Origin: an uncultured Opitutia bacterium
GTDB lineage: Bacteria > Verrucomicrobiota > Verrucomicrobiia > Opitutales > Opitutaceae
NCBI GenBank assembly: GCA_903900845.1
Contig: CAIUOU010000165.1
Location: forward strand, 1 to 33,040
Direction of reading: 5' to 3'
Length of the DNA stretch: 33,040 bases
The position numbers were made by a program, and so were the translations under genes. Below, piece after piece: positions 21,661-32,597 of the stretch; position 1 is the first letter of the stretch; the number at the start of each line of letters is the position of its first letter. The notes under the pieces are model-generated. The model was not told the DNA's origin, did not search any database, and was given only the letters and a program-made list of their open reading frames with translations.

Positions 21661-22713
21661 ATGAATCGCGCCGAAACCGAGCAACCCCAATTTGCCGTGA
21701 TCGGCTGCGGACTCATCGGCCGCAAGCGGGTACTCGCCCTCGGGCCCAAGGCGCCGCTGCTCTACACCTGCGATCTTGATGCCGCGCGCGCCACTGCCCT
21801 CGCAGCTGAAGTGCCCGGCTGCACCCCGGTCACCGAAGCCACGCGGGTGTTCGCCGATCCGCGCGTGACGGCCGTCATCATCTCCACGCTCAACGCGTCG
21901 CTCGCACCGCTGGCTCTCGCGGCGGTCCGCGCGGGCAAGCATGCGCTGGTGGAAAAACCGGGGGGCCTCAACGCGACGGAGCTCCGCGCGGTGGCCGAGG
22001 CAGCGCGGGCCACCGGGGCCAAGGTTCGTCTCGGCTACAACCACCGCTTTCACGGGGCGATGCTCAAGGCCCGCGAATTGGTCGACGCCGGCGCGCTTGG
22101 TCAGCTCATGTTCCTGCGTGGACGCTACGGACACGGCGGCCGCAAGGGTTATGACCGCGAATGGCGCGCCGACCCCGCCCTATCGGGTGGCGGCGAGCTG
22201 ATCGACCAAGGCGTACACCTGATCGATCTCGCCGGCTGGTTCCTGGGGGAATTCCCGACGGTCGAGGGCCACGCCGCGACGTACTTCTGGGACATGGCAG
22301 TCGACGACAACGCGTTCCTCTCGCTGCGCACCGCCGACGGCCGCACGGCGTGGCTGCACGCCAGCTGCACGGAGTGGAAGAACCTGTTCTCCCTCGAAAT
22401 TTACGGCCGCACCGGCAAGATCATCATCGACGGTCTGGGCGGAAGCTACGGCCCCGAGCGGCTTACCTATTACCCGATGCCGGTCGAGATGCTCGGTAAA
22501 CCGACGCCGCCCGAAATCCACGAGTTTCCCACCGACCGGTCATGGGCACTGGAGACCGAGGCCTTCGTCGACGACATCCGCCTCGGCCGTGAACCGTCCC
22601 CCGGCCTCCCCGAGGGGATCCGCACGCTGGAAGTGGTGGAGCGGATATATCGATCTTCAGTACGTGGGTCTGCACGCCCGCAGGGAGAAGGGAATGAGGG
22701 AAAGGGGGAGTGA
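21661..22713 (+). CDS. Gfo/Idh/MocA-family NAD(P)-dependent sugar oxidoreductase
   Basis: The 350-residue product carries a Rossmann fingerprint ([16 protein letters not shown], about residues 11-26), the family signature VEKPGG (about 98-103), and the substrate-domain segment [20 protein letters not shown] (about 178-197) with a catalytic-type His. It probably oxidises or reduces a nucleotide-linked or free sugar for the surface-glycan locus. The start at 21661 is fixed by the Rossmann strand; an unrelated upstream extension of the frame overlaps the divergent gene. The last residues ([11 protein letters not shown]) and the stop codon are encoded by the purine-rich left arm of cassette A, so the native C-terminus seems to have been replaced. 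The stop overlaps the next GTG by four bases. Confidence 0.92.
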
Positions 22714-22717
22714 GGGA
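22682..22717 (+). repeat. Cassette A left arm (8-nt tandem words)
   Basis: The arm is made of degenerate tandem words: AGGGAGA, AGGGAATG, AGGGAAAG, GGGGAGTG and AGGGA. The stretch GGGGGAGTGAGGGA (22704-22717) is an exact 14-base inverted match to 23096-23109 in the right arm. It supplies the C-terminal codons and stop of the preceding oxidoreductase gene, and also the ribosome-binding purines and GTG start of the four-helix gene. Confidence 0.85.
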
Positions 22718-23084
22718 GTTGGCCACGCACGACAAACTTCATCAGTTTGGCGGCTACCGTAAGGCATGTGAGCTGTTCGATCCGGTCGTGGCCGACCTTT
22801 CGCCACTGGCCCGCGAACCGCTTTGCATGCGATTGGTTTCGCAGCAGGTCGCCAGCGCTGACTCCGTATCCGCGAATATCGAGGAAGGCTACGGACGCTC
22901 ATCGCGGGCGGAGTACATTCGGTTTCTGGTCATAGCCCGCGGCTCCGCTCTCGAAACCCGCGGCCGCTACGAGCAACGCCTGCGACACTGGCTGCCGCCC
23001 GAAACCATCAGCGCCAGAGTCGCCCTATGCGAAGAGATCATAGCTATTCTGAGCGCATCCATCCGGAAATTACGTTCGGCCTGA
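22710..23084 (+). CDS. Four-helix-bundle protein (23S rRNA intervening-sequence family), cassette A
   Basis: The 124-residue all-helical product matches the S23/TIGR02436 four-helix family. The central signature is [19 protein letters not shown] (about residues 45-63), then Ser-Arg-Ala-Glu-Tyr-Ile-Arg-Phe-Leu and a Gly-Ser-Ala-x-Glu-Thr helix. The family was first seen encoded in intervening sequences of bacterial 23S rRNA and includes the Avd accessory protein of diversity-generating retroelements; its cellular role outside those is unknown. The start is GTG 22710 (four-base overlap with the previous stop) or TTG 22719, which has better Shine-Dalgarno spacing. It sits inside inverted 8-nt word arms between the oxidoreductase and hddA. 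The gene looks lower in GC than its neighbours. Confidence 0.85.
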
Positions 23085-23088
23085 GCCC

Positions 23089-23138
23089 CACTCAGTCCCT
23101 CACTCCCCCACTCCCTTCCTCACTCTCGTCCTCCCTCC
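23089..23138 (+). repeat. Cassette A right arm (inverted 8-nt tandem words)
   Basis: Read on the minus strand it gives words such as AGGGAGTG, GGGGAGTG and AGGGACTG, the same family as the left arm. The exact inverted 14-mer is at 23096-23109. The arm ends on the base before the hddA ATG, so it forms the whole leader of that gene and contains CCTCC-type sequence rather than a Shine-Dalgarno sequence. Confidence 0.85.
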
Positions 23139-24122
23139 ATGATCATCACCCGTTCCCCTCTGCGTGTGTCGCTCGGCGGCGGCGGCACCGACCTGCCGTC
23201 GTATTACCGCGAGCACGGCGGCTTCCTCGTCGCGGCGGCGATCGACAAGTACGTCTACATCACGCAGCACCGCACGTTCCAGGAGGAGATCATCGTCAAG
23301 TACTCGAAGCTCGAGCGCGTCGCCTCGGTCGACCAGATCGAGCACCCGATCATCCGCGAGGCGCTGAAACTGACCGGGGTGACCGATCCGCACCTTGAGC
23401 TGACCTCGATGGCCGACATCCCCGGCGGCACGGGCCTCGGTTCGAGCGGCAGCTTCACCACCGCGCTGCTCCGGGCGCTCCATGCGTACCGGAAGAACCT
23501 CGTCTCGCCGGCGGAGCTGGCCGAGCAGGCGTGCGACATCGAGTTGAACCGGCTCGGCGAGCCGATCGGGAAGCAGGACCAGTACATCGCGGCGATCGGC
23601 GGCATCACGGCCTTCACCTTCCACCGCGACGGCCGCGTCGAGTACCGCCCCTGCGCGATCTCGGAGGAGACCCTGTTCAACCTGGAGGATAACCTACTGC
23701 TTTTCTTCACCGGCTACAGCCGCAGCGCGTCGGCGATCCTGAAGGACCAGAACGACAAGTCGAAGCGCGCCGACCAGGCGATGCTCGACAACCTGCACTT
23801 CACCAAGGAGCTAGGGTTGAAGTCCCTCGCGGCGCTCGAAGGCGGTAACCTCGAGGAGTTCGCTCGCCTCATGGACGTGCACTGGCAGCGCAAGAAGGCA
23901 CGCAGCTCCGGCATGAGCAACGACCGCATCAACGAGTGGTACGACCACGCGATGGCGCACGGGGCTCTCGGCGGAAAGCTGATCGGCGCGGGCGGCGGCG
24001 GGTTCCTGATGTTCTACGCCGGCGACAAGAAACGCCTCCGCCACGCGATGCGCGAGAAGGGCCTGCAGGAAGTGCGCTTCCGTTTCGACTTCGAGGGGAC
24101 GAAGGTCGTCGCGCAAAACTAA
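23139..24122 (+). CDS. hddA: D-glycero-alpha-D-manno-heptose-7-phosphate kinase (GHMP family)
   Basis: The 327-residue product is a GHMP kinase. It starts MIITRSPLRVSLGGGGTDLP, typical of HddA, and carries the ATP-binding loop IPGGTGLGSSGSF (about residues 95-107) and the C-terminal motif KLIGAGGGGFLMF (about 281-293). HddA phosphorylates D-glycero-D-manno-heptose 7-phosphate at C1 in the GDP-heptose pathway. All other enzymes of that pathway lie within 3 kb downstream (hddC, gmhA, gmhB), which supports HddA over fucokinase or other GHMP kinases. It is bracketed by two four-helix cassettes: cassette A ends exactly at its start codon, and cassette B starts at its stop codon. Confidence 0.93.
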   Translation: MIITRSPLRVSLGGGGTDLPSYYREHGGFLVAAAIDKYVYITQHRTFQEEIIVKYSKLERVASVDQIEHPIIREALKLTGVTDPHLELTSMADIPGGTGLGSSGSFTTALLRALHAYRKNLVSPAELAEQACDIELNRLGEPIGKQDQYIAAIGGITAFTFHRDGRVEYRPCAISEETLFNLEDNLLLFFTGYSRSASAILKDQNDKSKRADQAMLDNLHFTKELGLKSLAALEGGNLEEFARLMDVHWQRKKARSSGMSNDRINEWYDHAMAHGALGGKLIGAGGGGFLMFYAGDKKRLRHAMREKGLQEVRFRFDFEGTKVVAQN

Positions 24123-24153
24123 GGAAGATAGGGAGAGTGCGAGATCGGAAGAC
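24121..24153 (+). repeat. Cassette B left arm (8-nt tandem words)
   Basis: Tandem words GGAAGATA (24123), GGGAGAGT (24131), GCGAGATC (24139) and GGAAGACC (24147) follow the hddA stop codon directly; the stop's last two bases already belong to the arm. The inverted counterpart lies at 24585-24637, where the minus strand reads GGGAGATTGCGAGACTTGG followed by AAGATAG. Confidence 0.75.
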
Positions 24154-24170
24154 CAACGAAAACTCGCGGC

Positions 24171-24533
24171 GTGAGTTCGTCCGAGGACAATCGCCGGCTT
24201 GAGGAAAGAACGCTGTGTTTCGCCGCGGCGACCGTGAACTTCAGCGTCACCTTGAAGCGTAACGATGCTGCGTCCGTGATCGCGCGCCAACTCGTACGCG
24301 CCGGAACCTCGATCGGGGCCAACTACCGCGAAGCCAACCGGGCAGAGTCCCGCGACGACTTTGTCCACAAGACCGCAATCGCCCTCAAAGAGGCTTCTGA
24401 GACCGTCTATTGGCTGGATTTATGCGAGCGGACTGCCCTCGGTGATAAGAACCTGCTGCAGGATCTGCGACAAGAGGCCGTGGAGCTTTTGGCAATCTTC
24501 TCGACCATAAACCGTCGCGCCAAGGGACGCTGA
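24171..24533 (+). CDS. Four-helix-bundle protein, cassette B
   Basis: The 120-residue helical product is a second member of the S23/TIGR02436 four-helix family, from a different subgroup than the other two here. The signature is ARQLVRAGTSIGANYREANR (about residues 38-57), then Ser-Arg-Asp-Asp-Phe-x-x-Lys and KEASETVYWLDL (about 72-83). The start is GTG at 24171, with no ATG alternative that keeps the first helix. It lies between hddA and hddC inside its own inverted word arms. The function is unknown; related proteins can bind nucleic acid and partner reverse transcriptases, but no such gene is in this window. Confidence 0.86.
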   Translation: MSSSEDNRRLEERTLCFAAATVNFSVTLKRNDAASVIARQLVRAGTSIGANYREANRAESRDDFVHKTAIALKEASETVYWLDLCERTALGDKNLLQDLRQEAVELLAIFSTINRRAKGR

Positions 24534-24584
24534 CTCGTTCAGTAACCGCCGGTCTCATCGTACCCTTCGCCGTACCTCCACGAA

Positions 24585-24637
24585 CCTTCTAAGTCTGTCT
24601 CCGACGTCTCTCTATCTTCCAAGTCTCGCAATCTCCC
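24585..24637 (+). repeat. Cassette B right arm (inverted 8-nt tandem words)
   Basis: The plus strand contains the repeated words CTTCTAAGTCT (24586) and CTTCCAAGTCT (24616), and ends AATCTCCC on the base before the hddC ATG. Read in reverse, its 8-nt words (GAGATTGC, GAGACTTG, GAAGATAG) match the left-arm word family. It is the entire visible leader of hddC. Confidence 0.75.
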
Positions 24638-25369
24638 ATGTCTTCCCACCTTCCCGTAGCGATCCTTGCCGGGGGTCTGGCCACGCGGTTGCGGCCGATC
24701 ACCGAAAAAATTCCCAAGCTCCTCGTGGAGGTCGCGGGGGAGCCGTTTTTCTCGCACCAGATCCGCCTGCTGAAGCGGCACGGGCTCGATCATCTGGTCC
24801 TGTGCGTCGGCTACCTCGGGGAGCAGGTCGTCGAGCGTTATGGCGACGGCTCGGCGTGGGGCGTGAAGATCGAGTACTCGTTCGACGGCCCGCGCCTGCT
24901 CGGCACCGGCGGCGCACTCATCGCCGCGCTGCCGAAATTGGGCGACGCGTTCTACGTGCTCTACGGCGACAGCTACCTGCCGGTGGATTACCGCGCGGTG
25001 GGCAACCATTTCCTTCACTCCGGCCGGCTCGGGCTCATGACCGTCTACGGCAACGAGGGTCGCTACGACACCAGCAACGTCGAGTTCACCGGCGGCGAAA
25101 TCCGCGTTTACGACAAGCGCCACCGCACGCCCGCCATGCGCCACATCGATTACGGGCTCGGGGTGTTCCGCGCGGCGGCGTTCGCAGGTTGCCCGCGCGA
25201 CGCGGTCGTCGACCTCGCAGCCGTTCAGACCGATCTCTGCCGGCGCGGCCAGCTCGCCGGGCACGAGATCAAGGAGCGCTTCTACGAGATCGGCTCCCAC
25301 GAGGGCCTGCAAGAACTGGACGCGTTGCTGAGAAGCGGCGGGTTCAACGGGGGCCCTAATCCAGCCTAG
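24638..25369 (+). CDS. hddC: D-glycero-alpha-D-manno-heptose 1-phosphate guanylyltransferase-like nucleotidyltransferase
   Basis: The 243-residue product is a sugar-phosphate nucleotidyltransferase. The N-terminus AILAGGLATRLRPITEKIPK (about residues 7-26) is the nucleotide-binding loop with the activating Lys, and Leu-Tyr-Gly-Asp-Ser-Tyr (about 108-113) carries the metal-binding Asp. It would join GTP and heptose-1-phosphate to form GDP-D-glycero-alpha-D-manno-heptose. Assignment as HddC instead of a generic mannose-1-phosphate guanylyltransferase depends on hddA, gmhA and gmhB beside it. It starts directly after the right arm of cassette B, and gmhA follows after 45 bases. Confidence 0.88.
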   Translation: MSSHLPVAILAGGLATRLRPITEKIPKLLVEVAGEPFFSHQIRLLKRHGLDHLVLCVGYLGEQVVERYGDGSAWGVKIEYSFDGPRLLGTGGALIAALPKLGDAFYVLYGDSYLPVDYRAVGNHFLHSGRLGLMTVYGNEGRYDTSNVEFTGGEIRVYDKRHRTPAMRHIDYGLGVFRAAAFAGCPRDAVVDLAAVQTDLCRRGQLAGHEIKERFYEIGSHEGLQELDALLRSGGFNGGPNPA

Positions 25370-25414
25370 CCAAGCGCACGCGGGACCGACACCGTCCCGG
25401 GACCAAACAAAGCC

Positions 25415-26020
25415 ATGTCCTACTCCGTCCAGCACCTGAAGGAGACCGCCGAGATCGTCGCCCGCATCGACGCGGCGGCGTGTGAGAAATGCGTCCAGGA
25501 ACTCGTCGCGGTGCGCGCGCGCGGCGGCCGGCTTTTCATCCTCGGTGTCGGCGGCAGCGCGGCCAACGCCGGGCACGCCGTGAACGACTTCCGCAAGATC
25601 GGCGGCCTCGAGTGCTACGCGCCGACCGACAATGTCTCGGAGCTCACCGCGCGCACCAACGACGAGGGTTGGGCGACCGTGTTCGCCGAGTGGTTGCGCG
25701 GCTCACGGCTGCGCAAGGAAGACGCCCTCCTCGTGCTTTCCGTCGGCGGCGGCAACCTCGAGAAGAATGTCTCACCCAACCTCGTCCTCGCCCTCCAGCT
25801 CGCGAAGCAGGTCGGCGCGCGAGTCATCGGAATCGTCGGCAAGGACGGTGGCTATACGGCACAGGTGGCCGACGCCTGCGTGATCGTGCCGACCGTCAAC
25901 CCGGGTAACATCACGCCGCACAGCGAGGCCTTTCAGGCGGTCATCTGGCATCTGTTCGTCTCCCATCCCTCGTTGAAGGCCCACCAAACGAAGTGGGAGT
26001 CGGTGGCCGCCAAGCCCTGA
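25415..26020 (+). CDS. gmhA: Sedoheptulose-7-phosphate isomerase (SIS domain)
   Basis: The 201-residue product is a single SIS domain. It contains the phosphosugar loop GVGGSAANAGHAVNDFRK (about residues 46-63), the second loop VLSVGGGNLEKNVSPNL (about 107-123), and the C-terminal helix with Glu-Ala-Phe-Gln-Ala-Val-Ile-Trp-His. GmhA converts sedoheptulose-7-phosphate to D-glycero-D-manno-heptose 7-phosphate, the first committed step of heptose synthesis. It lies between hddC and gmhB in one direction with short gaps. The GGSAANA loop is the GmhA/DiaA-type form, and the neighbours settle the choice for GmhA. Confidence 0.93.
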   Translation: MSYSVQHLKETAEIVARIDAAACEKCVQELVAVRARGGRLFILGVGGSAANAGHAVNDFRKIGGLECYAPTDNVSELTARTNDEGWATVFAEWLRGSRLRKEDALLVLSVGGGNLEKNVSPNLVLALQLAKQVGARVIGIVGKDGGYTAQVADACVIVPTVNPGNITPHSEAFQAVIWHLFVSHPSLKAHQTKWESVAAKP

Positions 26021-26056
26021 CGGCGCGGCGGAAAAGGAAACGCGGACGACCTTCGG

Positions 26057-26671
26057 ATGAACCAGCCCGGCACCGGCACCTCTCCCGCCGGACGACGCCC
26101 GGCGGTCTTCCTCGACCGGGACGGCACGCTTAACCGCCAGGTAATCCGCGACGGGCGGCCCTACCCGCCCGCCAACCTCGAGGAGTTCGTGCTTTTTCCC
26201 GACGTGGTGGAGGCGTGCGCGCGGCTGGCTGGGGCGGGCTACGCGCTGGTGGTAGCGACCAATCAACCCGACGTCGGCCGCGGAACCCAAGAACAGTCCG
26301 TCGTCGATGCGATGCATGCCCGCCTGCGTGCGTGGGTGCCGCAGATCGAACGCGTGGAAGTTTGTTACGCCCCGGGGCTCGATCGTTCGGCCCCGCCCGA
26401 CCGCCGACGGAAGCCGGAGCCGGGCATGCTGCTCGACGCGGCTACGGCGCTCGGTCTCGACCTCGGAAACTCGTGGATGGTCGGCGACCGCTGGCGCGAT
26501 ATCGACTGCGGCCAACGGGCGGGCGTGAGAACCGTCTTCATCGAATTCGGCTACGCCGAGGAGCTGCGCGCGCCGCCGGATTTCACCGTGAAGTCATTGG
26601 CCGAGGCGGCCGCGGTTATCCTGCGGGAGGGCGGGGCTGCGCGCTTGCCGAAGGACGGTGGGAGCCGCTGA
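26057..26671 (+). CDS. gmhB: D-glycero-manno-heptose-1,7-bisphosphate 7-phosphatase (HAD family)
   Basis: The 204-residue product is a HAD phosphatase with motif I VFLDRDGTLN (nucleophile Asp20, acid Asp22), motif II in VVATNQPDVGRG (about residues 64-75), Lys in RRKPEPGM (about 116-123), and Asp residues in MVGDRWRDIDCG (about 140-151). It removes the C7 phosphate from heptose 1,7-bisphosphate. The zinc loop of E. coli GmhB, with three Cys and one His, is reduced to a single Cys in this protein. The transaldolase gene begins 17 bases after its stop, so the two are probably co-translated. Confidence 0.9.
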   Translation: MNQPGTGTSPAGRRPAVFLDRDGTLNRQVIRDGRPYPPANLEEFVLFPDVVEACARLAGAGYALVVATNQPDVGRGTQEQSVVDAMHARLRAWVPQIERVEVCYAPGLDRSAPPDRRRKPEPGMLLDAATALGLDLGNSWMVGDRWRDIDCGQRAGVRTVFIEFGYAEELRAPPDFTVKSLAEAAAVILREGGAARLPKDGGSR

Positions 26672-26688
26672 CTGGCGGAAAACTCCCG

Positions 26689-27408
26689 ATGAAAACCGTC
26701 CAAGACCTTTCCATTCATCTGTACGCCGATGGCGCGGACCGCGCCGGCATCCTGGACCTTTACGCCAAGCCCTACATCAAGGGCCTGACGACCAATCCGA
26801 GCCTGATGAAGAAGGCCGGCATCAAGGACTATGAGGCGTTCGCCAAGGACATCCTCCAAACGGTGACGGCGAAGCCGATCTCACTGGAGGTTTTTACCGA
26901 CGACCTCGCCGATATGAAGCGGCAGGCGCTGAAGATCGCGTCCTGGGGTGCCAACGTTTACACTAAAATCCCGATCACCAACTCCCGCGGGGAATCGTGC
27001 CTGCCCCTCATCCGCGAACTCGGCCTGGCCGGGGTGAAGTTGAACGTGACCGCCCTGCTGACACTCCGCCAGGTCGCCGGCGTGGCGGAGGCGCTCAATC
27101 CCCAGGTGCCCTCGGTGGTTTCGGTCTTCGCGGGACGCATCGCCGATACCGGCGTGGACCCGATGCCCCTGATGCGCGCCTCGCTGGCCCTGCTGGAAGG
27201 GCAGCCGAAAGCGGAGCTGCTGTGGGCCAGCACGCGCGAGGTCATCAACATCCTGCAAGCGCAGGAGTGCGGCTGCCGTATTATCACCGTGCCGCACGAC
27301 ATCCTCGGCAAAGCCGTGAAGATGTTCGGGCAGGACCTCACCGAGCTTTCCCTCGACACCGTGCGCATGTTCGCCCGCGACGCCGCCGACTGCGGATACC
27401 GGATCTAA
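26689..27408 (+). CDS. Transaldolase / fructose-6-phosphate aldolase-family protein
   Basis: The 239-residue TIM-barrel product has the family entry IKGLTTNPSLMKKAG (about residues 30-44), the Schiff-base lysine in VYTKIPIT (Lys93), and GVKLNVTALLTLRQV (about 113-127). Size and motifs fit the short TalC/FSA group instead of the long TalB group. Placed directly after gmhB in the heptose run, a transaldolase would make sedoheptulose-7-phosphate, the GmhA substrate, from fructose-6-phosphate and erythrose-4-phosphate; this is inferred from context. The frame runs far upstream through gmhB, but 26689 is the start that begins the barrel. Cassette C starts at its stop codon. Confidence 0.9.
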   Translation: MKTVQDLSIHLYADGADRAGILDLYAKPYIKGLTTNPSLMKKAGIKDYEAFAKDILQTVTAKPISLEVFTDDLADMKRQALKIASWGANVYTKIPITNSRGESCLPLIRELGLAGVKLNVTALLTLRQVAGVAEALNPQVPSVVSVFAGRIADTGVDPMPLMRASLALLEGQPKAELLWASTREVINILQAQECGCRIITVPHDILGKAVKMFGQDLTELSLDTVRMFARDAADCGYRI

Positions 27409-27465
27409 GGGACGAGGGACTGAGGGACTAAGAGATTAAAGGACCAAGGGACTAAAGGACTGAGG
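27406..27465 (+). repeat. Cassette C left arm (8-nt tandem words)
   Basis: This is the clearest arm: seven consecutive words of seven or eight bases, AGGGACG, AGGGACTG, AGGGACTA, AGAGATTA, AAGGACCA, AGGGACTA and AAGGACTG. It begins at the TAA stop of the transaldolase gene. GAGGGACTAAG (27422-27432) is an exact inverted match to 28000-28010 in the right arm. Confidence 0.9.
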
Positions 27466-27479
27466 AACCACCGGCCACC

Positions 27480-27926
27480 ATGCGGGACTACCGAAAGATC
27501 GAGGCGTGGCAGCTGGCCGACGATCTCGCGGTCGCCATTTACAGGCTGAGTAACGTGCTTCCCCGTGAAGAAATATACGGACTCACCAGCCAAATGAGGC
27601 GTTCAGCCGTTTCTGTCGCAGCCAACATTGTGGAGGGATCGGCACGGGAGACCAAAGGGGACTACCTTCATTTTCTTCACATCGCCCGCGGTTCCCTGGC
27701 CGAGACCCGACATTTCATTCACCTCACCCGCCGTCTTGAGTACGTTCCCGAATCCGACGCCAACGCCGTGGAGGAACTCAGCCGCAGGGCCTATGCCTGC
27801 CTGCACGGCCTTATCAAGGCGGAGGAAAAAGACGCTGGAAAGCCCGACCGTTTAGCTGCGACGGTCAAAGCCTTGGCGGTTCTAGGTGCCGCGCACCTTT
27901 CACTCATTCCCGCTCACGATCTCTAA
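27480..27926 (+). CDS. Four-helix-bundle protein, cassette C
   Basis: The 148-residue product is the most typical family member of the three. It opens MRDYRKIEAWQLADDLAVAI and has the signature REEIYGLTSQMRRSAVSVAA (residues about 29-48), then Asn-Ile-Val-Glu-Gly-Ser-Ala-Arg and Phe-Leu-His-Ile-Ala-Arg-Gly-Ser-Leu-Ala-Glu. The S23/TIGR02436 assignment is secure; the function is not known. The C-terminal 30 residues extend beyond the usual bundle. It lies between the transaldolase gene and the large glycosyltransferase gene inside inverted 8-nt word arms. Its first codons contain GGGACTA, the same word as the arms. Confidence 0.93.
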   Translation: MRDYRKIEAWQLADDLAVAIYRLSNVLPREEIYGLTSQMRRSAVSVAANIVEGSARETKGDYLHFLHIARGSLAETRHFIHLTRRLEYVPESDANAVEELSRRAYACLHGLIKAEEKDAGKPDRLAATVKALAVLGAAHLSLIPAHDL

Positions 27927-27964
27927 ACCGCGCCCACCGATTCAGCGGCAACTTTCGCCCCTAC

Positions 27965-28013
27965 GTCCCGTGGTCCCTTAGTCCGTTAGTCCCTTTCTCC
28001 TTAGTCCCTCCCC
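27965..28013 (+). repeat. Cassette C right arm (inverted 8-nt tandem words)
   Basis: Read on the minus strand the arm gives AGGGACTA, AGGAGAA, AGGGACTA, ACGGACTA, AGGGACCA and CGGGACGT, the same word as the left arm in inverted orientation. It ends on the base before the TTG start of the glycosyltransferase gene. Confidence 0.9.
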
Positions 28014-31000
28014 TTGAATATACTCTTTGTTAACTACGGCGATTTCACGACCAACAGCCTGAACCACATCGGAGGGTTCGCGAACACGCTGTGCGCCTCG
28101 GGGCATGCGTGCGCCGTCGTGGTGCCGCACCGCAAGGAGACGCTGCAGCATATCGCCGGGCCGCTGTTCATCGCCGCGACCTACGAAGAGGCCCTTGCCC
28201 GCCCCAGGCTCTTTCCTGACGGACGCGCCGCCGACATCATCCACGCCTGGACCCCCCGCGAATGCGTCCGCGCCTTCACCCTGGCCTACCGCCGCGCGGC
28301 GCTCGCGGCAGGGGCGGGGCCCGGTGACGGACGCCTGCTGATCCATCTCGAGGACAACGAGCACTTCCTGCTGGAGAGCTACACCGGCCGCCCGCTCGAC
28401 CGCCTGCGCGCGTCTTCCGACTCCGAACTGGCCGCGCTACTCGACCCCAGCCTGCCGCACCCTGTGCGCAGCGAAACATTCCTCGGACTGGCCGACGGCG
28501 TGACACACATCATCGCGCCGCTCGCCGCGTCCGCTCACTCCGGCACGCCGACGCACCTGCTGTTCCCCGGAGTGGACTTCAAGCTGTACGGACCGGACCG
28601 TGCCAGCGCGTCCGAGACCGAGGTGCTGCGGAAGGAACTGGGGTTGGCGAACGACGAGAAGGTCATCGTTTTCACCGGCTCCAACACCTTCGCGAACGAG
28701 CCTGAGATGCGCGATCTGTACGTTGCGGTCGCGCTCCTGAACCAACGAGGAACCCGCGTGCGCCTCGTGCGTACCGGCTTCAACTCCCCCCGCTTTCTCG
28801 CCGGGCTAACGGACGACCTGAAGCGCCACGTGCTCGACCTCGGTTTCGTGGAGAAAGCGAAGCTGCCCCGCCTGCTCGCCGTCGCCGATGTCCTGGTGCA
28901 GCCGGGGAGGCCCGGGCCCTTCAACGACCTGCGGCTGCCCTCGAAGCTTCCTGAGTTTCTCGCTTCGGGCCGGCCGGTCCTCCTCCCGCCCACCAACCTC
29001 GCCGCCCTCATGCAGGACGGCAGGGATGCGGTCTTTCTGCCGGCAACCGGCACGCCCGAGGACATCGCGGCGGCCTGCACGCGCATTTTCAATGATCCGA
29101 GCCTCGCCAGCGCGCTCGGCGCGGCGGGCGCCGCCTTCGCCCGCGAACACTTCGACCTCGCCGCCAACACGCGCGGCCTGGCGGCGTTCTACGCCGACTG
29201 CCTCGAGCGCCCACCGGTGGCCGACTGGTCGTCCATCGCCGCGCCGACCACCTCCGACGCCACGTTGTTCTCAAGTTTACTCGCCGGCCGGCTCGGCGCG
29301 GCCGCCGCGGAACTGAACGACCCCTCCGCCCGGCAGCTCGCAGACCAGACGGCACTCCTCGCCGACGTCGTGCGGCAGCTTGAGCAAAGCGTGGAGACCT
29401 CCGCCCGCCAACGCATCGCCGCCGTCGAGGCCGACCGCGACGCCATCGCCGCGCGGGAGCAGCTCACGCAAAACCACGTCCGCAACATCGAGGGACTGCT
29501 CGCCGCCGCCCGCGAACACGCCGCCGGGCTCGAGAAGGCCCGCGACCTCACGCAGGTCTACGCCGACAACATCGCGAAGGAATGCGCGAAGCATAAGCTG
29601 CGGCGCGATCAGGCCGACACGCTGCTTTCCACCGCCCGTCGTCAGGTCACGGCCTACGAGAACGCCCTGCTCGGCGCCGACGCCGAGATCGCCGCGCTGA
29701 AGGCCGAGGTCGCCCGTCTTGAGGAGACGCTCGCCGCGTCCCGCACCGAGACCGCCGCCGGACTGGCCGAGCAGGCACGAATGCGCGCCGCCGCCGAGGC
29801 CGCCGAAGCCCACCTGCGGGCTGGCCACGCCGCCGAACTGGCGGTCGCCGCCGACCAGCTCGCGCAGGTCGAGGCCTTGGTACGCTCCCGCGACGAGAAG
29901 CTGGCGAAGATCCAGTCGTCATTCTCTTGGAAGGTCACCTCGCCGTTCCGCGCGCTGCGCCGGCGCTTTCTGGACCAACCCGCCCCCCCGGCCGCCTCCC
30001 CGGCGCTGCTGGGCAATATCGATTACCCGCAGGACTGGTCCGTCGTCGCGGAGACCCTGAGCATCCGCGGCTGGTCGCTGCACCGCGACCGTCGGCGCCT
30101 CAAGGCAATCCGCGCCCGGTTGGGCGAAACCCAGGCCCACGCCGTGTACGGAGACGAACGGCTCGATGTGCTCGACCATTTCCGCGACTACCCCGGCGCC
30201 GAGCGCTGCGGCTGGCAGGTAAAGGTAGAGGTGCCGCGGCGCGGCACCCACCTGCTCGTGATCGAGGTGCAGGACGAGGGCGGCGCGTGGCATGTGGCCC
30301 ACGCCCGGGCGGTCCGCCGCTCCGGCAAGGCCGCCCCGCCCCCTCCCAACTCCTACGGCGCCTGGGTCGCCGCCTACGACACCCTCACCCCGGAAAGCGC
30401 GGCCCAAATCCGCACCAAGCTCGCCAGCCTCACCCGCCGCCCGCTGATTTCCGTCGTCCTCCCGGTCTACAACACCCCGGAGAAACTGCTCGTCGCAGCA
30501 ATCGAGTCGGTGCGCCGCCAGCTCTACGAGAACTGGGAACTCTGCATCTCGGACGACGCGTCCAAGCAGCCTCACGTTCGCAAGGTGCTCGAGCGCTACC
30601 AGCGCAAGGACCCGAAGCGCATCAAGGTCATCCTGCGCGAGACCAACGGCCACATCTCCGCGAACTCCAACTCCGCCCTAGCTCTCGCCCACGGCGAATA
30701 CATCGCCCTGCTTGACCACGACGACGAGCTGCGCGCCCACGCCCTCGCCTGCGTGGCCCTCGAGCTCGACGCCCACCCCGAGGCCGACGTGGTCTACAGC
30801 GACGAGGACAAGATCGACGAGAACGGCCACCGCTACGACCACTACTTCAAGCCCGACTGGAATCCGGACCTGTTCAACGTCCAGAATTTCATCAGCCACC
30901 TCGGCGTCTACCGCACCCTGCTGGTGCGCGAGGTCGGCGGGTTCCGCGTCGGGTACGAGGGTTCGCAGGACTGGGACCTCGCGATGCGCGTCATAGAACG

Positions 31001-32087
31001 GAGCGGCCCCGACCGCATCCGCCACATCCCCCGGATCCTCTACCACTGGCGCAGCGTGCCCGGCTCCACCGCGATGCTGATCGGCGAGAAGCCGTTCGCC
31101 GCCGTCGCCGCGGAGAAGGTAATCTCGGAGCATTTCATCCGCACCGGCGTGGAGGCGACGATCTCCCCCACCAAGGGCTCCTATTGGCGCGTGCACTACC
31201 CGGTCCCCGATCCCGCGCCCCGCGTGACCCTCGTCATCCCCACGCGCAACCGCCTCGATGTCCTGCGGCCCTGTGTCGAGAGCCTGCTGGCGAAGACCAC
31301 CTACCCGAACTTCGAGCTCCTGATCGTCGACAACGACAGCGACGACGCCGAGACGCTCGCCTACCTCAAGGAGATCTCCTCCACCACCGGCACGGACGGC
31401 CGCGCGGCGGTCCGGGTGATCCGTTCACCGGGCGAGTTCAATTACTCCGCGCTCAACAATCTCGGCGTCGAGCACACCGACGCGCCGCTGGTCGGCCTGC
31501 TCAACAACGACCTCGAGGTCATCCACGGCGACTGGCTGCACGAGATGGTTTCCCATGCCCTCCGGCCCGAGATCGGGTGCGTCGGGGCCAAGCTCTACTA
31601 CCCCGACGACCGCATCCAGCACGCGGGCGTGATCCTCGGCATCGGCGGCGTGGCCGCCCACGCGTGGCAGACCCATCCGCGCGGAGCCGCGGGCCAAGCC
31701 CACCGCAATTACCTCCAGCAGAACCTCAGCGCCGTCACCGCGGCGTGCCTCGTGATCCGCCGGGAGACTTTCCTCCGCGTCGGCGGGCTGAACGCGGATC
31801 AGCTCAAGGTCGCCTTCAACGACGTCGACTTCTGCCTGAAGGTGCGCGCGGCGGGTTTCCGCAACCTCTGGACCCCCTACGCCGAGCTGTACCACCACGA
31901 GAGCGCGAGCCGCGGCAAGGAGGACACGCTGGAGAAGCGCGACCGCTTCCGCAGCGAGGTGGAGTACATGCGCGCGACCTGGGGCGAGCTGCTGGACAAC
32001 GATCCCGCCTACAACCCGAACCTCACGCTCACGATCAACGACTTCACCCTCGCCCTCCCCCCGCGCGACTGGCCGCCGCTGAAGTGA
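28014..32087 (+). CDS. Multidomain glycosyltransferase: GT-B, coiled coil, beta-sandwich, two GT2 domains
   Basis: The 1357-residue product combines several modules. Residues 1 to about 395 form a GT-B/GT4-like glycosyltransferase (start MNILFVNYGDF; KVIVFTGSNTFANEPEM, about 222-238). About 425-640 is Ala/Glu-rich coiled coil. About 669-772 is a beta-sandwich (LSIRGWSLHRDR). About 810-1045 is a GT2 domain (ISVVLPVYNTP; DHDDE; VVYSDEDKIDENG). About 1069-1320 is a second GT2 domain (VTLVIPTRN; LLNNDLEVI). With the GDP-heptose genes upstream it probably builds a heptose-containing surface glycan. TTG at 28014 is the only start that includes the complete first strand, and it abuts the cassette C right arm. 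Confidence 0.9.
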   Translation: MNILFVNYGDFTTNSLNHIGGFANTLCASGHACAVVVPHRKETLQHIAGPLFIAATYEEALARPRLFPDGRAADIIHAWTPRECVRAFTLAYRRAALAAGAGPGDGRLLIHLEDNEHFLLESYTGRPLDRLRASSDSELAALLDPSLPHPVRSETFLGLADGVTHIIAPLAASAHSGTPTHLLFPGVDFKLYGPDRASASETEVLRKELGLANDEKVIVFTGSNTFANEPEMRDLYVAVALLNQRGTRVRLVRTGFNSPRFLAGLTDDLKRHVLDLGFVEKAKLPRLLAVADVLVQPGRPGPFNDLRLPSKLPEFLASGRPVLLPPTNLAALMQDGRDAVFLPATGTPEDIAAACTRIFNDPSLASALGAAGAAFAREHFDLAANTRGLAAFYADCLERPPVADWSSIAAPTTSDATLFSSLLAGRLGAAAAELNDPSARQLADQTALLADVVRQLEQSVETSARQRIAAVEADRDAIAAREQLTQNHVRNIEGLLAAAREHAAGLEKARDLTQVYADNIAKECAKHKLRRDQADTLLSTARRQVTAYENALLGADAEIAALKAEVARLEETLAASRTETAAGLAEQARMRAAAEAAEAHLRAGHAAELAVAADQLAQVEALVRSRDEKLAKIQSSFSWKVTSPFRALRRRFLDQPAPPAASPALLGNIDYPQDWSVVAETLSIRGWSLHRDRRRLKAIRARLGETQAHAVYGDERLDVLDHFRDYPGAERCGWQVKVEVPRRGTHLLVIEVQDEGGAWHVAHARAVRRSGKAAPPPPNSYGAWVAAYDTLTPESAAQIRTKLASLTRRPLISVVLPVYNTPEKLLVAAIESVRRQLYENWELCISDDASKQPHVRKVLERYQRKDPKRIKVILRETNGHISANSNSALALAHGEYIALLDHDDELRAHALACVALELDAHPEADVVYSDEDKIDENGHRYDHYFKPDWNPDLFNVQNFISHLGVYRTLLVREVGGFRVGYEGSQDWDLAMRVIERSGPDRIRHIPRILYHWRSVPGSTAMLIGEKPFAAVAAEKVISEHFIRTGVEATISPTKGSYWRVHYPVPDPAPRVTLVIPTRNRLDVLRPCVESLLAKTTYPNFELLIVDNDSDDAETLAYLKEISSTTGTDGRAAVRVIRSPGEFNYSALNNLGVEHTDAPLVGLLNNDLEVIHGDWLHEMVSHALRPEIGCVGAKLYYPDDRIQHAGVILGIGGVAAHAWQTHPRGAAGQAHRNYLQQNLSAVTAACLVIRRETFLRVGGLNADQLKVAFNDVDFCLKVRAAGFRNLWTPYAELYHHESASRGKEDTLEKRDRFRSEVEYMRATWGELLDNDPAYNPNLTLTINDFTLALPPRDWPPLK

Positions 32088-32093
32088 GGGCTG

Positions 32094-32121
32094 AACCACG
32101 GATAACTCGGATGACACAGAT
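32094..32121 (+). repeat. Cassette D left arm (9-nt tandem words)
   Basis: Three 9-base words occur in tandem: ACCACGGAT (32095), AACTCGGAT (32104) and GACACAGAT (32113). The first is an exact inverted match to ATCCGTGGT at 32575-32583. The ATG at 32111 of the GxxExxY gene lies within the arm. The arm begins seven bases after the glycosyltransferase stop codon. Confidence 0.85.
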
Positions 32122-32542
32122 CAGACCAGAGGCTCCTCATCCGAATCCACACCGGGACGAGACGGGGGCAACTAGGGAGATCATCCACGCCGACATCAGC
32201 CAGATGATCATCGGGTCAGCGATGCAGGTTCTCAACACCCTGCGCCCCGGCCTCGACGAGAAACTCTATGAGAACGCACTCGTCCTCGAACTTTCGCGCC
32301 GCGGTTTGCGCGTGGAGCAACAAAAGCGTTTCCAAGTCTCCTATCTCGGCCAGCTGATCGGGAGCCTTCAGCCGGATCTGATCGTGAATGAAGCCGTGAT
32401 CGTCGACACCAAGGTGGTCAGCTCGTTCAATGATTCCCACGTCGCTCAGATGAACGGTTATCTTGCGATCACCGGATTGCGGCTGGCGCTGCTGCTGAAT
32501 TTTAAAACCACGAAACTCGAGTGGAAGCGGGTTGTGCGCTGA
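32111..32542 (+). CDS. GxxExxY protein (PD-(D/E)XK-like), cassette D
   Basis: The 143-residue product has the name-giving motif GLDEKLYENAL (about residues 47-57) and the segments SLQPDLIVNEAVIVDTK (about 87-103) and HVAQMNGYL (about 111-119). The Asp...Glu-x-x-x-x-x-x-Lys arrangement fits the PD-(D/E)XK nuclease-like fold to which GxxExxY proteins have been assigned. Function is undetermined. The frame is open far upstream through the glycosyltransferase gene; ATG 32111 lies in the left arm, and Met at about residue 32 is an alternative that still retains the motif. Like the four-helix genes it is enclosed by inverted short tandem words and is compositionally less GC-rich than its neighbours. 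Confidence 0.9.
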   Translation: MTQIRPEAPHPNPHRDETGATREIIHADISQMIIGSAMQVLNTLRPGLDEKLYENALVLELSRRGLRVEQQKRFQVSYLGQLIGSLQPDLIVNEAVIVDTKVVSSFNDSHVAQMNGYLAITGLRLALLLNFKTTKLEWKRVVR

Positions 32543-32560
32543 AACGCTACCATCCTCCCG

Positions 32561-32597
32561 CCTTTATCCGTTTAATCCGTGGTATCTGTGGTTAAAT
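32561..32597 (+). repeat. Cassette D right arm (inverted 9-nt tandem words)
   Basis: Words ATCCGTTTA (32566), ATCCGTGGT (32575) and ATCTGTGGT (32584) are the reverse complement of the left-arm word family. The arm ends nine bases before the ATG of the next gene at 32607. Confidence 0.85.

Follow-up and report, generated by a model that had tools for sequence, protein, structure and literature searches.

What are the four short genes, each enclosed by mirrored arrays of short tandem words, that separate consecutive pathway genes in a contig (CAIUOU010000165.1) of an uncultured Opitutia bacterium? The window, i.e. the whole stretch of 33,040 nucleotides that was analysed, contains three genes of a four-helix-bundle family (A, B and C) and one gene of the GxxExxY family (D). 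Each is preceded by an arm of degenerate words repeated in tandem and followed by an arm of the same words inverted. Profile matches and direct reading agree with the preliminary description of this arrangement. Units A to D are each very probably a small mobile DNA unit, in which a single short gene lies between mirrored direct-repeat arrays that form the ends of the unit, and this is the preferred explanation. The phenomenon is larger than the preliminary description supposed.

That the units are mobile DNA elements can be said with high confidence, since whole units are present or absent at orthologous sites and related units occur at unrelated sites, as the preliminary description had proposed in suggesting a mobile unit. 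The clearest case comes from cyanobacterial plasmids. Plasmid C of Trichormus variabilis and a Scytonema plasmid carry a four-helix unit, and six plasmids that are 97.3-97.8% identical match in two pieces without it. Three of these six were read and each has a clean empty site. The empty site is AAAAAGTAATTAAC / AAAAAGTAATTAACAAAT, whereas the filled one is AAAAAGTAAT-unit-GTAATTAAC / GTAATTAACAAAT, which corresponds to a clean 5-bp target duplication. A seventh relative (L323, 90.5%) holds a degenerate copy whose gene is truncated and whose right arm is missing. In a Nostoc plasmid slot (filled in L318 and L334, empty in L332, L333 and L335-L337), TTCTA is found at both ends. In total, presence and absence of the whole unit were seen at the Trichormus, TTCTA and TAATG plasmid slots, and at lower identity for GxxExxY units. 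Two related units at unrelated plasmid sites share a 79% match that is confined to positions 1445-1857, i.e. the arms and the gene. The related viral contigs L418 and L421 carry units at reciprocal slots (77-80% identity), and in L331 a gene-less arm pair sits inside the four-helix gene of one strain.

The arm signal, modest for the single units A, B and D, is overwhelming for the class. The four-helix profile TIGR02436 is present in 65 of the 95 genomes searched around the genome of the window and GxxExxY in 42 of 57. Among 60 loci taken from these genomes, seven were left unscored where contig ends cut the flanks, and 47 of the 53 others scored above the highest of 53 displaced controls. In a multi-phylum set of 80 loci (71 scored, nine omitted for cut flanks), the threshold of 13.5 was reached by 43 loci versus one of 60 controls. 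Arms at or above this threshold were then counted in 221 distinct genes (domain matches with E <=1e-6 in loci L001-L211; 240 matches, 235 distinct, 14 dropped for short flanks or N). They surround 115 of the 153 four-helix genes and 65 of the 68 GxxExxY genes, versus 46/765 and 47/340 for swapped-arm controls whose left and right arms come from different units. Among the 68 GxxExxY entries, a frame-split gene of the window's own genome appears twice; a weak match on contig C171 is left out of them. The right flank was taken from the domain end; starting from the stop of the open reading frame (ORF) gives lower counts (97/152 and 48/68), since certain ORFs extend across the right arm. Viral contigs, fetched irrespective of arms, had 35 of 46 four-helix genes armed versus 0/38 controls, a proportion that overstates independence because some viral loci are near-copies of one another. 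On plasmids, all eight loci inspected among 34 matches were armed. One of them, in Bacteroides finegoldii, lies between radA and a gene for an FAD protein; two of the eight (L312 and L313) are one unit on two plasmids. Arm-framed small genes occur in many bacterial phyla and stand between operon genes, frequently near the stop codon of one and the start codon of its successor. The check named at the outset, arms around homologous genes elsewhere, found them around most. Among the plasmid loci, the Anabaena sp. 90 unit (L314) is a four-helix unit flanked by cas6 and cas4 in a type I-D CRISPR (clustered regularly interspaced short palindromic repeats) locus, and the Nostoc edaphicum unit (L315) lies antisense between the ribonucleotide reductase genes nrdB and nrdA.

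The same slot can hold different units in related genomes. For the slot between gyrB and gyrA, 30 gyrA loci were fetched and 28 spacers were readable. Seven contain four-helix units, mostly with GTAGCGA-like words, six contain GxxExxY units with CGCGAAG-like words, and at least five contain, as judged by eye, a gene-less mirrored word pair. The remainder are short or have other content; the spacer of G020 measures only 27 nt. In L237 (G007), words of GxxExxY type (CGCCAAGCCGCGAAGG) precede a four-helix unit, as though a unit had inserted into another or displaced it. The spacer of L239 (G031) holds two small genes resembling, by eye, a VapBC-type toxin-antitoxin pair. In the operon of the window, several members of the genus lack A or B, the units beside the kinase gene, or have something else in its place, and slot B of G012, G001 and G025 holds a gene-less CACGGAA or CACGAAA pair. 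Slot C of the close relative G026, whose alignable operon stretches are 88-93% identical to the window, is occupied by a GxxExxY unit, outside which part of a C-type left arm persists as a remnant.

Both arms of one unit change together. Four slots with a total of 25 orthologous units were used, and each left arm was compared with its own right arm and with the right arms of other species at the same slot. The own right arm matched better in the gyr four-helix slot (p 0.034), in slot A (p 0.028) and in slot B (p 0.0028), and for the four slots jointly the observed sum was reached by 0 of 100,000 permutations. In slot B, left flanks bear little resemblance to one another across species (mean score 11.2), yet each resembles its own right flank (18.4; 9.9 between left and cross-species right flanks). 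The slot-A and slot-B proteins each form one clade among 164, with support 1.0 and identities of 0.61-0.85 and 0.52-0.74, respectively; the slot-B clade includes one extra sequence, from G034, whose coordinates are those of the same slot. Because of these single clades and of the own-arm matching, the A and B units appear to descend from old single insertions, the two ends of each having since been rewritten together.

The period of the words is conserved per gene family, 7-8 nt for four-helix and about 9 nt for GxxExxY units, while the word sequence is free to vary. The best repeat lag was 7 in 89 and 8 in 22 of the 115 armed four-helix units. For the 65 GxxExxY units it was 9 in 28, 8 in 13 and 10 in 13, hence 8-10 in 54 of them. 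Inside the genes, taken as a control, best lags were scattered for four-helix and mostly 12, 13, 6 and 9 for GxxExxY. Since the latter cluster at these values, the lag-9 match (0.35 in arms versus 0.26 inside genes) is the clearer sign for GxxExxY. Words of four-helix arms include GTAGCGA, GTTGAAA, CTAGAGG, AGGAGTC, GGGAACA, TTAGGCTG and AGGGACTA, and those of GxxExxY arms are of the CACGGAT, CACAGAG, CGCGAAG and CACTAAT types. Arm likeness between units climbs mainly above 60% protein identity. At 60-80% identity the between-unit arm similarity is 0.34 and 0.44 versus 0.65 and 0.62 for the left-right match inside one unit; above 80% it rises to 0.68 and 0.61 and equals the within-unit match. 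The earlier claim that arms are cassette-specific and not copies of one transposon end stands insofar as words vary, and has to be restricted insofar as words are shared above about 80% protein identity and partly at 60-80%. One fixed transposon end for all units was rejected, as words differ and track the protein only at high identity.

Word pairs are also found without a gene. A blind scan for inverted matches with a span of about 875 bp covered 811 kb, namely the window, 378 kb of its own genome and 400 kb of G029. It returned 77 inverted matches, among which were, by eye, seven four-helix or GxxExxY units and ten gene-less word pairs; the remainder were, again by eye, GC-rich coding matches or other palindromes. 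Seven of the nine clear units in the stretch were recovered, A and D being under threshold. No word pair was seen by eye around any other gene within about 875 bp. The check whether words occur unrelated to these genes had a divided outcome: because gene-less pairs exist, the words are not exclusive to four-helix and GxxExxY genes, and the pairs that enclose a gene enclose, by eye, no other. For one gene-less pair, G026 yields 69 matches, many of which are both orientations of one palindromic copy. A Nostocales gene-less family of about 185-220 bp has matches in 29 and 33 plasmid records and has arm words in common with a four-helix unit. Being short, non-coding, multicopy and bounded by inverted ends, the gene-less arm pairs have the features of miniature inverted-repeat transposable elements (MITEs). 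Two further repeats came to light in the scanned DNA. A multicopy palindrome AACGCCCTGACCCCTTT/AAAGGGGTCAGGGCGTT, without tandem words, occurs on contigs C110 and C1 of the own genome (L292 ~4875, L294 ~5950, L297 ~12975, L306 ~11300). In G029 (L282 ~200 and ~13200), palindrome pairs TTTCACGTAATACGTGAAA stand 125-200 bp apart and are a separate kind of repeat.

The coordinates of the four units of the window are collected in Table 1. In each of A to D the ends are complementary and could pair into a long stem, a feature that is strong for C and weak for A, B and D alone. The periods of 8, 8, 8 and 9 nt first given for A to D agree with reading by eye; Tandem Repeats Finder backs those of A and C, with period 8 in both arms of each, and reports nothing of that period for B or D. 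Local alignment of the left flank with the reverse-complemented right flank against 200 dinucleotide shuffles placed C beyond chance (27 versus a shuffle maximum of 20). A (19, maximum 24), B (20, 22) and D (17, 19) were above the shuffle mean and under the maximum. The RNA duplex energy of the arms compared with 300 shuffles gave z = -2.8 (A), -2.2 (B), -5.2 (C) and -3.5 (D). In the later survey, C scored 21.0 and A 16.0, and D narrowly missed the threshold with 13.0; B was unscored among the 221 genes, its copy lying too close to a locus end, and reached 17.5 in the orthologous-slot analysis. Given these modest shuffle, duplex and survey scores, the arms of A, B and D are weak when taken singly. 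Elsewhere in the own genome the pattern recurs. There are four TIGR02436 genes in total (A, B, C and one more), all with mirrored word arms by eye. GxxExxY matches at six further places represent five genes, one of them split across two frames; arms are missing only at the weakest match (C171, 49 bits), all clear ones being armed by eye and by flank alignment. The frame-split gene, at C166:5792-6134 of this genome (G000; L009/L011), is apparently broken and its arms are still well matched. The GxxExxY unit on contig C1 has the same orientation as its neighbours.

Table 1. Genes and arms of units A to D, in window coordinates.
Feature	Position	Strand	Description
Gene A	22710..23084	+	Four-helix bundle, TIGR02436 (E 5.7e-18) and PF05635; GTG start
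Unit A left arm	22680..22719	+	Period-8 words of AGGGAGTG type; overlaps the oxidoreductase stop codon (22711-22713) and the GTG start of gene A
Unit A right arm	23088..23138	+	Mirrored words CTCACTCC...; ends at the kinase ATG (23139)
Gene B	24171..24533	+	Four-helix bundle, TIGR02436 (E 6.7e-23) and PF05635
Unit B left arm	24123..24153	+	GGAAGATA-GGGAGAGT-GCGAGATC-GGAAGA; immediately 3' of the kinase stop (24120-24122)
Unit B right arm	24586..24637	+	Mirrored words; ends at the nucleotidyltransferase ATG (24638)
Gene C	27480..27926	+	Four-helix bundle, TIGR02436 (E 1.9e-31) and PF05635
Unit C left arm	27405..27465	+	AGGGACTA type, period 8, 7.8 copies (Tandem Repeats Finder); starts at the transaldolase stop
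Unit C right arm	27965..28009	+	Mirrored, period 8, 5.8 copies (Tandem Repeats Finder); few bases 5' of the glycosyltransferase start (28014)
Gene D	about 32195..32542	+	GxxExxY, TIGR04256 (5e-37); PF13366 PDDEXK_3 (5.5e-35); PD-(D/E)XK superfamily
Unit D left arm	32093..32127	+	Period 9, ACCACGGAT type
Unit D right arm	32564..32596	+	Period-9 words, mirrored

The units measure about 400-600 bp and have a TIGR02436 or TIGR04256 gene as their sole gene. The left arms start at, over or a few bases from the stop codon of the preceding gene; in A, B and C the right arm reaches the start of the following gene or stops within a few bases of it. By profile matches, the neighbours are oxidoreductase, heptose-type kinase, nucleotidyltransferase, transaldolase and glycosyltransferase genes. 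The host operon looks like a heptose/glycan operon, a putative assignment as most of its enzymes match below curated cut-offs. Profile matches of the unit genes revealed no known transposase or integrase in A to D, and none to the HUH/Y1 transposase family by which repetitive extragenic palindromes and their associated tyrosine transposases (REP/RAYT) are recognized. Gene C scores 20.3 bits against the Avd profile DivGenRetAVD, whose cut-off is 80, and does not qualify as the Avd of a diversity-generating retroelement. Solved structures related to the four-helix proteins are 2gsc and 2rld. A structure search with gene D gave no convincing solved relative; this gene retains D, K and Q at columns where 58 of the 68 surveyed GxxExxY entries have them.

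Several observations weigh against the mobile-unit explanation. The six unit-free relatives of the Trichormus plasmid are mutually related and are not six independent cases, and a clean target duplication is found in that slot only. In the TTCTA slot, TTCT is also part of the arm words. In a further slot (L337 versus L332, L334 and L336), TAATG faces TTATG, so that four of five bases are repeated, and in another (L316 and L327 versus L325, L326 and L330) no target duplication is readable. The Nostocales gene-less copy precedes GATAA with at most 2 bp duplicated, as judged from one copy and four natural empty sites; such insertion beside GATAA with little duplication suggests another mechanism or mobilization by another element. 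A near-identical filled and empty pair was not found for GxxExxY, the nearest empty site (G008) being about 81% identical; in that search the plasmids gave no second record and the phages no match. As for the arms, 38 of the 153 four-helix genes and 28 of the 71 multi-phylum loci are below threshold, and in the in-step comparison the gyr GxxExxY slot taken by itself misses significance (p 0.18). Finally, the units carry no mobility protein of known kind by sequence, which leaves the encoded protein a candidate mover only.

The arms could instead be kept for what they do in RNA. In such an element the transcribed arms would form a stem looping out the gene, to be cut by RNase III, and the pairing itself would be the selected trait. 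The arms of A, B and C extend to the upstream stop and the downstream start, arm duplexes reach z values of -2.2 to -5.2 over the four units, and arms change in step. In addition, the intervening sequence (IVS) of Coxiella, which likewise encodes a protein of the four-helix family, is cleaved within its arm by RNase III, according to the available part of the report (PMC4990558). Pairing kept in the transcript should make G-U tolerated above A-C between arms. On the transcribed strand, the 25 slot units show an excess of A-C over G-U mismatches (49 versus 22). G-U versus A-C amounts to 58 versus 84 in 35 units that share the orientation of both neighbours, to 4 versus 7 in four antisense units and, on the coding strand of all scored units, to 114 versus 122 and 59 versus 84; in these counts neighbour orientation was guessed from ORF length, most units stayed unclassed, and related sequences are not independent. 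G-U is not above A-C in any set, and the antisense placement of the Nostoc edaphicum unit between nrdB and nrdA also speaks against selection in the transcript. RNA pairing on the transcribed strand was consequently rejected as the main selective force and the earlier suggestion of such pairing, as what keeps the arms, is not supported; cutting by RNase III is compatible with the counts. An element acting at the RNA level is considered unlikely.

Closer to the mobile-unit explanation stands the possibility that the arrays are ends for a transposase or recombinase encoded elsewhere, with the four-helix and GxxExxY genes as cargo or selfish helpers. In the scan, gene-less pairs are no rarer than gene-bearing ones (10 versus 7, by eye), and they are sometimes multicopy. 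Single-strand transposons of the IS200/IS605 kind insert beside their target almost without duplication, and the gene-less cyanobacterial family before GATAA resembles them in this respect. Nevertheless, the word period differs by gene family, and because it follows the family, ends and gene belong together; moreover only the four-helix and GxxExxY families were found inside arms (by eye, 811-kb scan), and the words seem too variable for the site of one ordinary transposase. Trans-mobilized cargo is therefore held to be quite possible without being probable. Paired tandem words might also be binding arrays for a nucleoid or regulatory protein. The look is the same as that of the sites so interpreted in Geobacter metallireducens, opposite-strand pairs of tandem 7-9-nt repeats, as far as the available text describes them (PMC2700814). 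However, insertion involves the entire unit, gene included, the operons and plasmids that harbour units are unrelated, and words differ between units of one genome, which makes this very improbable. Least credible is the idea that replication slippage and template switching generated the words and mirrored copies locally, with no mobility involved. Words do vary by point changes and by copy number inside an arm, and such errors may keep arms alike. Against this stand the clean empty sites at 97% identity, the 5-bp duplication, the related units at unrelated sites and a four-helix gene that contains a gene-less unit. The clean empty sites led to the rejection of slippage alone as the source of the arms.

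For the small mobile unit preferred here, a mechanism can be outlined. The encoded protein would act on the ends of its unit. It would recognize word spacing or a hairpin and not a fixed sequence, with words drifting while the arms still match. Gene-less units would be mobilized in trans. Arm matching might be maintained by copying one arm from the other, through hairpin or template switching or through inter-arm recombination. Short-repeat addition as the origin of the ends, suggested earlier, stays a conjecture, although both arms of a unit do change in step. The four-helix or GxxExxY protein is the leading candidate for the mover, a tentative assignment that we hold less likely than not. 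If this is true, free end sequence combined with a kept period and a mirror match would be an unusual mode of element recognition. Two widespread families of 'hypothetical' proteins gain a context, being in most of the cases examined genes of small mobile units inside operons, even between gyrB and gyrA.

How do these units relate to known systems? The closest likeness is with the IVS of 23S rRNA. In Coxiella burnetii this IVS has an S23p gene, a 28-bp stem and tandem heptamers GACAGAT in two or three copies depending on the strain; it is called a selfish element and a mobile origin is cited as a hypothesis (PMC4990558). Like it, A, B and C encode the same four-helix family and have complementary ends with tandem words, and the likeness suggested in the preliminary description is reinforced by the Coxiella heptamers beside the S23p gene. 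Unlike the IVS, gene D codes for GxxExxY and not for S23p, and A to D lie between protein genes; the class adds GxxExxY genes, gene-less forms, slot turnover and filled and empty pairs. Five conserved motifs (four of 23S and one of 16S rRNA) had no exact match in any of the surveyed loci. A to D are built alike and are not classed as IVS because the defining location, an rRNA gene, is absent. The IVS of 23S rRNA may be a special case of these units, by analogy one that would have landed in an rRNA gene, and the old proposal of its mobility becomes testable through the filled and empty plasmid sites.

MITEs and REP/RAYT elements are small and mostly intergenic, with inverted ends and gene-less multicopy forms. 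The units described here differ in having ends that are word arrays differing from copy to copy and in lacking a transposase. The type II MITEs of Anabaena sp. 90 are an example (PMC3542288).

Other likenesses concern repeats described without such a gene. Short tandemly repeated repetitive (STRR) sequences of filamentous cyanobacteria are reportedly the subject of work by Vioque in 1997, to judge from its title. Cyanobacterial STRR hairpins usually have 7-nt words, stand between operon genes such as hupS and hupL and are of unknown function (PMC2670836). The Nostoc plasmid units likewise have hairpin-capable arms of 7-nt words, a likeness drawn from the description of STRR; unlike these ends, STRR are not presented in the available text as ends of a gene-bearing unit (PMC2670836). 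In Xanthomonas, GGGAATC heptamer arrays form 70 and 75 inverted pairs in two genomes and are interpreted as G-quadruplex formers, generally with no link to mobile elements (PMC4692102). They have heptameric words and inverted pairs in common with the arms, and the available text mentions neither 'four helix' nor 'S23' nor XCC0516. In Geobacter metallireducens, the paired sites lie on opposite strands, a variable number of bases apart, and consist of tandem octa-, hepta- and 8-9-nt repeats and are interpreted as regulator sites; the TCTCCGTSY repeat is of the CACGGAGA kind found beside GxxExxY (PMC2700814). Unlike the units, genes inside the pair are not mentioned in the available text of that paper, from which 'four-helix' is absent.

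The literature searched, as far as its text was available, gave no description of a four-helix or GxxExxY gene and word arms as one unit, nor of the link between them. By analogy, the STRR hairpins, the Xanthomonas heptamer pairs and the Geobacter paired sites look as though they may be parts of the same class. It is possible, if less than probable, that all belong to a pan-bacterial class of transposable elements moved by a four-helix or PD-(D/E)XK protein of 110-150 residues, of no known transposase kind, that reads the period or hairpin of ends rewritten in step, with the IVS of 23S rRNA, the STRR and the Xanthomonas and Geobacter pairs as members or relics. Repeat classes known separately in cyanobacteria, Xanthomonas and Geobacter may thereby be joined.

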